A DNA stretch of 64,000 bases from contig NJBI01000009.1 in the NCBI GenBank assembly GCA_005222975.1, forward strand, positions 1-64,000. Reading direction: 5' to 3'. The first letter of the stretch is position 1. Every line of letters starts with the position of its first letter. The position numbers were made by a program, and so were the translations under genes. The DNA is from Promethearchaeota archaeon Loki_b31. Its GTDB lineage: Archaea; Asgardarchaeota; Lokiarchaeia; Sigyniarchaeales; SOKP01. This document shows, in pieces, positions 33,166-36,088 of this stretch. A model generated the notes under the pieces. It was not told the origin of the DNA. It did not search any database and saw only the letters and a program-made list of their open reading frames with translations.

Positions 33166-33876
33166 ATGATCGAGCTCGAAGAATCGGCAATTATTTCTCA
33201 TATTTTCGATTTAGCTAAGAAAAACGGTCTTATATCGATCGCCGGCAAATCTGGTACGGGAAAAACCACCTTGGCTCTGCAATTTGTTAGCACACTTATG
33301 ACGCTCGAAAAAACTTACCGAGACCAGTGCGTCTGGATACAAGCAAGCGAACAATTTCCTAAAAAAAGGTTAAGAACGCTTTTTGAAAGTTATTCTGATA
33401 AAGTCAATTACGTTCTGAAAAACATATTTATTGCCCCTGGAATAAAACCTTTTTCTAACTACCAAGAGCAATCTTCTTACTTTAGAAAATTAAAGACCAC
33501 GATTTTTCCAAGTAACGCTAAAATCATCGTTATCGACAATATTTCCCATTTTTTGCGCTTTAACATCGCTTCTAACTCGGACTTTAAAAAACGGGGAGCT
33601 ATCATGGACGAATTTTTCAGCGTACAGTTGTTTCCCTTAATAATGCGTTGCCTAAGAGAGAAAATAATTCTTATCTTGGTCCACGAGGTTTCTTTCGATC
33701 CTACCTCAGGCAAGACAAAACCTTTTTTTAGCAAGTTATACGATAGAATTGACTCGATAAACATCAACCTCTCGAAGACTATGGGTTCGGGTCTAAAACA
33801 GATGGAAATTAGTTCGAAAGGTACCTCTACGAAGTTTGTCTACGAAATTGCAGAATCTGGAATCGTAAATTTGTAA
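33166..33876 (+). CDS. RadB/KaiC-like RecA-fold ATPase
   Basis: A 236-residue RecA-fold protein: Walker A IAGKSGTGKTTLALQF near residue 26, Walker B AKIIVIDNISHFL near 121, and KIILILVHEVS as the following strand. Size and layout match RadB or single-domain KaiC-like ATPases; no HhH or second RecA domain is present. RadB modulates RadA-dependent recombination, while KaiC-like proteins regulate diverse processes. It follows the two membrane genes by 29 bases on the same strand, and RadA lies about 1 kb downstream. Confidence 0.75.
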   Translation: MIELEESAIISHIFDLAKKNGLISIAGKSGTGKTTLALQFVSTLMTLEKTYRDQCVWIQASEQFPKKRLRTLFESYSDKVNYVLKNIFIAPGIKPFSNYQEQSSYFRKLKTTIFPSNAKIIVIDNISHFLRFNIASNSDFKKRGAIMDEFFSVQLFPLIMRCLREKIILILVHEVSFDPTSGKTKPFFSKLYDRIDSININLSKTMGSGLKQMEISSKGTSTKFVYEIAESGIVNL

Positions 33877-34654: not shown

Positions 34655-34872
34655 AGAGCCTAATACTATTTTTATTTTCCAATTTCAATTTAGTTTAAAG
34701 AGTTAGAATTTTTAATCCAATTTTTTATGAATAAATGAAATTGTGTACAATTTTTTTCTTTATTAGTAACCGTGTCTAATCTGAATTAATTTAAATTACA
34801 TTATGGAGTTGATACAAAAAAACGTCAGATTTAGACCAAGTAAAAGGGATCAACGCTCGACAGATAAAGCTC

Positions 34873-35673
34873 TTGCAAGAGAGCGGTATTAGCACGGCGG
34901 AAGCTTTAGCAATGTCCCCACATAACATCATATCGGAGATCGACGGGTTAGGCGATAAAACAGCCAAGAAACTGATTTGGAATGCGCGAAACGCGTTAGG
35001 TATGACTGAGTTCATAACTGCCGATGACATCGACGAGAACACCGAGTACATTACCACTGGCTCTTCCGAATTAAACAGAATTTTAGGCGGCGGATTCCAA
35101 ACCGGAAAACTTACCGAAGTGTACGGACCCTTTAAGTCCGGTAAAACCAATTTAGCTCATACGATCGCTGTAACCATCCAGCTTCCTAAAAAAAAAGGAG
35201 GTTTAGGTTCCACAGTAGCCTACATCGACACCGAAAATACTTTTGCTAAGGAAAAAATCAAAAGAATCGCCAAAAGGTTTGGACTGGATCCGAAGAAGGT
35301 TCTATCGCAAATTTATCACGCCAGGATTTATTCATCGGACCACCAATCGCAAATGATTCAAAAAGCTGAAACTTTATGCAAAACTCGAAATGTGCGTTTA
35401 ATTGTAGTAGACAGTTTGATGGCGCTTTTGCGGGCCGAATATGTGGGTATTGGCATGTTAGCTCGTCGACAAAGCTTTTTGAACAATATGATACACGCCC
35501 TTTCCCGGGTTGCAGAGACATACAATTGTGCTGTTCTTCTTACCAATCAAGTTTCGACTAAGATGATGGGAATGTTTTCAGGAAACGACGCAATTGGCGG
35601 AAATAGTGATAAGATATTTCATCAATCACTTCTAAATCGTAGCCCATGGCTGCCACTTTCGTGTGATGTTTAA
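34873..35673 (+). CDS. radA: RadA recombinase, 5' part of an interrupted gene
   Basis: The archaeal RadA recombinase core: N-terminal HhH (ISTAEALAMSPHNIISEIDG), YITTGSSELNRILGGGF, Walker A YGPFKSGKTNLAH, Walker B RLIVVDSLMALLRAEY, the AETYNCAVLLTNQ strand and AIGGN. RadA forms filaments on single-stranded DNA and drives strand exchange. The TTG at 34873 is not the real start: matching sequence (TSDLDQVKGINARQIKLL) continues upstream in frame without a start, while ATG 34803 is one base out of frame across a run of seven A (34816-34822). After codon AAT 35602-35604 the RadA sequence breaks; it resumes at 35636 in another frame. The printed last 23 residues are therefore not RadA. Confidence 0.8.
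   Translation: MQESGISTAEALAMSPHNIISEIDGLGDKTAKKLIWNARNALGMTEFITADDIDENTEYITTGSSELNRILGGGFQTGKLTEVYGPFKSGKTNLAHTIAVTIQLPKKKGGLGSTVAYIDTENTFAKEKIKRIAKRFGLDPKKVLSQIYHARIYSSDHQSQMIQKAETLCKTRNVRLIVVDSLMALLRAEYVGIGMLARRQSFLNNMIHALSRVAETYNCAVLLTNQVSTKMMGMFSGNDAIGGNSDKIFHQSLLNRSPWLPLSCDV
35605..35635. other. 31-base insertion with a hairpin inside radA
   Basis: Removing exactly 31 bases (35605-35635) joins ...AIGGN to IVAHGCHFRVMFKTKG and restores the conserved RadA sequence and frame. The insert starts AGTGAT and contains ATCACT (35625-35630), a 6-base inverted repeat with a 14-base loop, and ends TCTAA. It adds an in-frame stop path. It might be a very small intron, a bypassed element, a scar of a mobile element, or an inactivating mutation. 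Confidence 0.7.
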
Positions 35674-36088
35674 AACTAAAGGTTTCTCTTCCAATAATTC
35701 GTTAAAGCGGAGAGCTATAATAGTGGATGCGCCAGACTTGCCACCTGAAGAAGCAGAGTTTTACATAACGAGTGTAGGAATTGCCGACACGGAAAAGGGA
35801 GAGGTTCCCGAAGCTCAAGGCTTAGATTTCGAAGTCGAGACATTGTACGAAGAAGAGAGTAACGCCGAAGAGAGCGAAGTTTCCGATAATGGTAATGGTA
35901 ACCATTCGCTCATTGATGTTAAAGGAATTGGAGCCGGCACCGCAAAGAACTTAATAAAGGTCGGAGTAGGCTCTGTAAAAGAGTTGGTAAGTTCTGACCC
36001 CGAAAAAGTGGCTTCTAAAATTAACGGAGTCTCTTCTAAAATGGTCCTTGAATGGCAAACCAACGCAAAGACCTTGTTGAGCGTTTAA
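35663..36088 (+). CDS. radA: RadA recombinase, 3' part with an extra C-terminal HhH
   Basis: This frame holds the RadA C-terminus. RadA-like coding actually resumes at 35636 (IVAHGCHFRV), before the first start-like codon GTG 35663. RRAIIVDAPDLPPEEAEFYI matches the conserved C-terminal strand and helix of RadA. Beyond the usual end, about 100 more residues follow: an acidic linker (EEESNAEESEVSDNGNGN), then a helix-hairpin-helix (IDVKGIGAGTAKNLIKVG, about 90-140). RadA normally has HhH only at the N-terminus. The extra HhH resembles the one in the membrane protein at 14182-16053. Function as a separate protein is unlikely. Confidence 0.75.
   Translation: MMFKTKGFSSNNSLKRRAIIVDAPDLPPEEAEFYITSVGIADTEKGEVPEAQGLDFEVETLYEEESNAEESEVSDNGNGNHSLIDVKGIGAGTAKNLIKVGVGSVKELVSSDPEKVASKINGVSSKMVLEWQTNAKTLLSV

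Follow-up and report, generated by a model that had tools for sequence, protein, structure and literature searches.

A 31-base insert in a Lokiarchaeal radA gene is most probably an intron that archaeal tRNA-splicing enzymes would remove from the pre-mRNA, with a relaxed bulge-helix-bulge (BHB) structure of the HBh′ form, and on the sequence comparisons reported here we give this reading a probability of about 0.9. It rests on the position of the insert, its exact excision length, a covarying fold shared among relatives, the machinery genes of the host genome and the selection acting on exon 2. A sequence-only reading of the same DNA had named a tiny intron among several options; this option is now strongly supported and its type can be named, as a relaxed BHB intron for the tRNA-splicing endonuclease (EndA).

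A 31-nt insert breaks the frame of a RadA-type recombinase gene

The window (the whole stretch of DNA analysed, 64,000 nt) comes from a 3.5-Mb metagenome-assembled genome of a Lokiarchaeote, in which it is contig C16. It carries a RadA-type recombinase gene at 34822-36088 (+ strand), the frame of which is broken by the 31 bases 35605-35635, read directly as AGTGATAAGATATTTCATCAATCACTTCTAA (31 nt). Exon 1 ends with ...GCA ATT GGC GGA AAT, its last base being 35604, and exon 2 restarts at 35636 with ATC GTA GCC CAT GGC. The parts of the gene are as follows:

34805-34813, + strand: Shine-Dalgarno-like sequence GGAGTTGAT, 8 nt before the start codon; this sequence or GGTGAT stands upstream in many relatives
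34822-34824, + strand: radA start, the non-AUG codon ACG, at the position where most relatives have ATG; N-terminal residues conserved
34822-35604, + strand: radA exon 1, with the N-terminal helix-hairpin-helix (HhH) and most of the RecA/Rad51 core (PF08423, PF14520 and NF003301 above cut-off)
35605-35635, + strand: putative relaxed BHB (HBh′) intron, 31 nt, from fold, relatives and frame restoration
35636-36088, + strand: radA exon 2, with the end of the Rad51 core, an acidic linker, a C-terminal HhH and the stop

The claim that excising exactly 31 bases restores the RadA frame proved accurate to the base: the spliced reading runs ...NDAIGGN-IVAHGCHFRVMFK..., with GGN-IVAHGCHFRV across the junction, and then stays open to the gene end at 36086-36088. 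The rest of the gene had also been called intact, which holds for the spliced frame but not for the start position, where ACG (34822-34824) is found instead of ATG, GTG or TTG. Read unspliced, the gene leaves the RadA frame and stops at TAA 35671-35673; because this lies inside the conserved core, a full recombinase would require splicing. RadA homologues of known structure have no gap at the insert point. Two other kinds of intervening sequence were considered and rejected. A group I or group II intron needs a catalytic core of hundreds of nucleotides, whereas the insert has 31 and an Rfam search of the window gave no match; an intein needs an in-frame protein insert, and a length of 31 nt is not divisible by three.

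The insert recurs at the identical base in one Lokiarchaeal family

A spliced-protein search of 84,980 species genomes recovered 36 Lokiarchaeal-type loci, six of which (L032, L033, L038, L040, L041 and L046) are interrupted at the identical base by an insert of 31 nt; the insert is also present in the window gene and in an N-terminally shortened copy on contig C63. The comparison with radA of related genomes, which had been suggested as a check, thus sets seven genomes with an identically placed 31-nt insert beside about 25 relatives with an uninterrupted GGN-IVAHG. In all seven distinct insert-bearing genes the spliced frame is intact and equal to that of the intronless homologues. Covariance-model searches covering 83 genomes within the class and 227 within the phylum placed insert-bearing radA in seven genomes, belonging to three genera of one Lokiarchaeal family: model R1 found the intron in no genome outside these seven among the 227 of the phylum, other classes included, and model R2 found no convincing intron-family copy outside radA in the 83 genomes. 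Weak R2 matches (E 0.003 to 0.5) were judged to be chance, those inspected (L083-L089, L091, L092 and L097) lying in unbroken frames or apparently non-coding DNA. Within radA itself, we saw no other interruptions besides contig ends and the known copies.

These distributions bear on the options of a recent mutation, an assembly error and a mobile-element scar, all raised by the sequence-only reading. A recent mutation is excluded, as site, length and structure are common to seven genomes. An assembly error is contradicted by independent assemblies from different studies, in which an insert of identical length and position recurs. A mobile-element scar is disfavoured by an exact empty site, no target duplication and no convincing copy outside radA in the 83 genomes. 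An AAAT direct repeat flanking the insert, 33 nt apart, was also considered as a transposon target duplication; its collapse would give GGA AAT CGT, unlike the observed empty site.

On the radA protein tree the presence and absence of the intron require six changes, and intron-bearing genes are interleaved with intronless ones that are up to about 95% identical to them in exon 1. Repeated exact gain or loss at one base would be expected from reverse transcription of spliced RNA or from allele replacement, not from random indels.

The copy on C63 (G000:C63:17462-18584; L004, L006) encodes a protein 91-94% identical to that of the window gene and lacks the first 48 codons. Its intron equals the window intron exactly, despite 9-12% exon divergence, perhaps as a result of gene conversion. 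One Lokiarchaeal radA lies on a contig labelled Candidatus Neomarinimicrobiota (L028, DAOUYY010000236.1), a label that is most likely a binning error.

Exon 2 is under selection in the spliced frame

Both exons are under strong purifying selection, which bears out the earlier argument against an old pseudogene. In pairwise comparisons of intron-bearing genes, dN/dS of exon 2 is 0.07-0.12, similar to that of intronless pairs, and in its codons 1-9 the pairwise differences counted were 97 synonymous against 0 nonsynonymous. It is accordingly highly improbable that the insert marks a decaying pseudogene, a mobile-element scar or an error. This account can point to the N-terminal truncation of the C63 copy in the same assembly and to the two further radA paralogues, beside which the window copy may be dispensable; it is largely refuted by the relatives, the purifying selection and the codon conservation in exon 2.

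The last three intron bases (35633-35635) are TAA, a stop in the exon 2 frame, in six of the seven sequences (CAA in L041), and the window gene has no standard start codon in the nine codons that follow. Since those nine codons are conserved right after an in-frame stop, joining of exon to exon, at the level of either the RNA or the ribosome, is the sole explanation. At the ribosome, the joining could be a translational bypass, a hop as in phage T4 gene 60, which the sequence-only reading had also listed; the insert does contain a hairpin, and a hop across it would restore the frame. However, the take-off codon (AAT or AAC) differs from the codon before the landing site (TAA, or CAA in L041) in 7/7 sequences, and we regard such a hop as scarcely credible.

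The inserts share a covarying fold that predicts the exact boundaries

The seven distinct sequences share a common fold, in which a 4-bp helix between exon and intron is followed by a 3-nt bulge, a five-pair inner helix and an upper three-pair helix. The hairpin AGTGAT/ATCACT noted previously is real, but as described it was too short: its pairs are GTGAT/ATCAC, surmounted by an upper GAT/ATC and joined to a further helix with exon 1. In the window gene the elements are:

35599-35602, + strand: central helix, 5′ strand GGAA, in exon 1; partner 35630-35633, 100% paired across the 7 distinct sequences, with a compensatory change at one pair
35603-35605, + strand: 5′ bulge A-T-A, predicted cut 35604/35605, from the geometry and the published cut rule (PMC2738675)
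35606-35610, + strand: inner helix, 5′ strand GTGAT; partner 35625-35629, with two-sided changes at three pairs
35613-35615, + strand: upper helix, 5′ strand GAT; partner ATC 35621-35623, the first pair being G-C, C-G or U-A across species
35616-35620, + strand: upper-helix loop ATTTC, between the GAT and ATC strands
35625-35629, + strand: inner helix, 3′ strand ATCAC, from the pairing and covariation analysis
35630-35633, + strand: central helix, 3′ strand TTCT, in the intron, from the same analysis
35634-35636, + strand: 3′ bulge A-A-A, open on the exon side (no outer helix), predicted cut 35635/35636

Across the seven distinct sequences 98.8% of cells are paired and five pairs have changed on both sides, among them a pair of the exon-intron helix in which an exon A to G change in L041 is matched by U to C in the intron. 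The nine core pairs form in six of the seven sequences, and eight of them form in the seventh. Covariation reached 0.440, compared with 0.243 ± 0.037 in shuffles (0/500) and at most 0.167 in slid controls; two of the covarying pairs, 24-45 and 27-42, coincide with third codon positions of the read-through frame, so that by themselves they do not establish a constraint on the RNA. Folded thermodynamically as a single strand, the sequence is only slightly more stable than its shuffles (z -1.68), and the central helix is absent from its minimum-energy structure.

That read-through frame is the one that a programmed +1 frameshift would use: the insert would be read in frame (SDKIFHQSLL), with a shift near CTT-CTA-A, and RadA would gain about ten residues. 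The frame is indeed free of stops in every insert, and the hypothetical insert peptides can be aligned. The peptide, however, varies at positions encoded by the loop (K/E/F/V/N) and is largely invariant only at positions encoded by helix strands, and the shift site is not conserved (CTC TCA in L041). A frameshift would place in the recombinase core ten poorly conserved residues without counterpart in intronless relatives, and it leaves both the central helix to exon 1 and the exact empty sites unexplained; we consider it very unlikely.

For an intron, by comparison, the fold predicts where the cuts would fall. The archaeal tRNA-splicing endonuclease cleaves each 3-nt bulge after its second base (PMC2738675), and this rule, applied unadjusted, yields 35604/35605 and 35635/35636, that is, exactly 35605-35635. 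The predicted excision therefore has the same boundary as that set independently by the intronless homologues. By chance, a motif with the generic BHB geometry (4 bp, bulges of 3 nt and 5 bp or more) arises in the window at a rate of 2.5e-4 per (position, length) pair. With about 26 chance motifs per kb, we judged a de novo BHB search of coding DNA to be of no use unless intronless homologues can be compared.

We found no conserved outer helix between the exons when searching by eye, and columns 13-15 and 54-56 show no consistent pairing. The canonical, strict hBHBh′ motif was rejected, as no outer helix closes the second bulge, and because this helix is missing we filed the insert under the relaxed HBh′ form, of which it has the 4-bp central helix, a 3-nt bulge at the splice site and the inner helix, with 8-9 of the 9 core pairs in every sequence. 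For the same reason, cutting at the 3′ site would depend on an enzyme that accepts relaxed motifs, a property read here from the protein sequence.

The genome encodes the enzymes for splicing

Both EndA and the ligase RtcB are encoded in the genome. There are two single-domain EndA-family proteins (G000:C13 and C79; L001, L002), and most genomes of the class have two such matches. The best match of one is the catalytic EndA subunit of Aeropyrum pernix; it keeps the active-site His, and its K-P-R aligns with K44-P45-R46 of the crenarchaeal loop that confers broad specificity and activity on relaxed motifs. The other protein lacks the active-site His, as expected of a structural subunit. The enzyme thus appears to be of the alpha/beta type with the CSL lysine, and would accept relaxed motifs. 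The genome also has several tRNA genes with predicted introns, and in other Asgard archaea tRNA introns are reportedly abundant and often at non-canonical positions (PMC11291895). We observed in addition that the Lokiarchaeal K-P-R loop resembles one that has been described as Crenarchaea-specific.

In the proposed mechanism, the terminal GGAA of exon 1 would pair in the transcript with UUCU near the intron 3′ end, and the intron would fold into a hairpin; at the 5′ site the bases AUA would form the 3-nt bulge, and at the 3′ site AAA would stay open. After EndA, made of its two subunits, had cut behind the second base at each site, RtcB would join the exons to give ...GGN-IVAHG...

Relation to known archaeal introns

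According to a 2020 paper, no archaeal protein gene other than crenarchaeal cbf5 had been reported to contain a BHB intron (PMC7714728). The cbf5 pre-mRNA intron of Desulfurococcales and Sulfolobales (PMC2738675) resembles that of radA in being short and BHB-like in a protein gene, with an unconventional BHB, cuts between bulge bases 2 and 3, a two-subunit EndA and a patchy occurrence among relatives at one fixed site. It differs in host gene and in phylum, the radA intron being found in the phylum of Lokiarchaeia, and splicing of radA is inferred. Relaxed HBh′ introns of archaeal tRNAs likewise have a central helix, one closed bulge, an inner helix and an open second site, and need a broad-specificity EndA (PMC6379350); in radA, however, the intron sits in an mRNA, and what it pairs with is coding sequence (GGN codons) rather than a tRNA arm. 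At the BHB site in the 5′ UTR of Haloferax HVO_1309 (PMC7714728) an mRNA is also a substrate of the splicing endonuclease, but there the 5′ UTR is processed, whereas in radA the intron lies inside the coding region and its removal would restore the frame.

We found no report of a BHB intron in an Asgard protein gene in the open-access literature, although an earlier report elsewhere is possible. The radA gene would be only the second archaeal protein gene with a tRNA-type intron, and the first in Asgard archaea. A further case in a distant phylum makes it probable that mRNA splicing by EndA is more than a peculiarity of crenarchaea, and splicing of protein genes by the tRNA pathway would be placed in the closest relatives of eukaryotes. 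In metagenome-assembled genomes, genes with BHB introns are scored as frameshifted or as pseudogenes, which may distort counts of gene content. The radA intron, fixed in site and length but often switching between presence and absence, also offers a compact case for the study of intron gain and loss.

The host is an accessory RadA with near-cognate start codons

The window protein belongs to the RadA/Rad51 family, with an N-terminal HhH and a Rad51 core above curated cut-offs (NF003301, 328 bits against 259; PF08423, 239 bits against 22); Pfam marks Rad51 and two HhH stretches. With the stricter TIGR02236 it scores 292 bits, under the cut-off of 361, as expected for a divergent paralogue. The genome encodes two other RadA homologues, with about 44% identity to the window gene. 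Because relatives of these two are found class-wide, and close relatives of the intron-bearing gene in only part of the class, we regard the intron host as a third, accessory RadA, which has an additional HhH at its C-terminus. Some Asgard archaea have been described as having two RadA clades (PMC12722695), in passages that make no mention of this intron.

In the window gene, an in-frame stop (TGA, 34810-34812) lies four codons upstream of the ACG, the first in-frame ATG, GTG or TTG does not occur before codon 18, and the ACG matches the start of the nearest relatives. The start codons of 33 full genes are ATG (20), ACG (5), ATT (5), ATA (2) and TTG (1), so that 12 of the 33 begin with a codon other than ATG, GTG or TTG (the window gene, L011, L012, L013, L015, L017, L029, L031, L032, L033, L043 and L046). 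In these 33 genes the residues after the start codon are conserved and a Shine-Dalgarno-like sequence is often found upstream, which suggests that the accessory RadA probably has conserved near-cognate initiation. A BHB intron at the 5′ end that would supply an AUG was also considered and rejected, as relatives that start with ATT, such as L033, have no upstream ATG.

More speculatively, and we hold this to be doubtful, the tRNA-splicing enzymes might act on mRNA as a control point in Lokiarchaea, with the output of the accessory third RadA kept low or conditional by a required BHB intron together with a near-cognate (ACG, AUU or AUA) start, and similar unannotated BHB introns might sit in further Asgard protein genes reported as frameshifted.

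About 1 kb upstream of the third radA, at 33166-33876, the window also encodes a RecA/RadB-like P-loop ATPase, which scores 40 bits with the RadB model, far below its cut-off, and 24 bits with Pfam Rad51.
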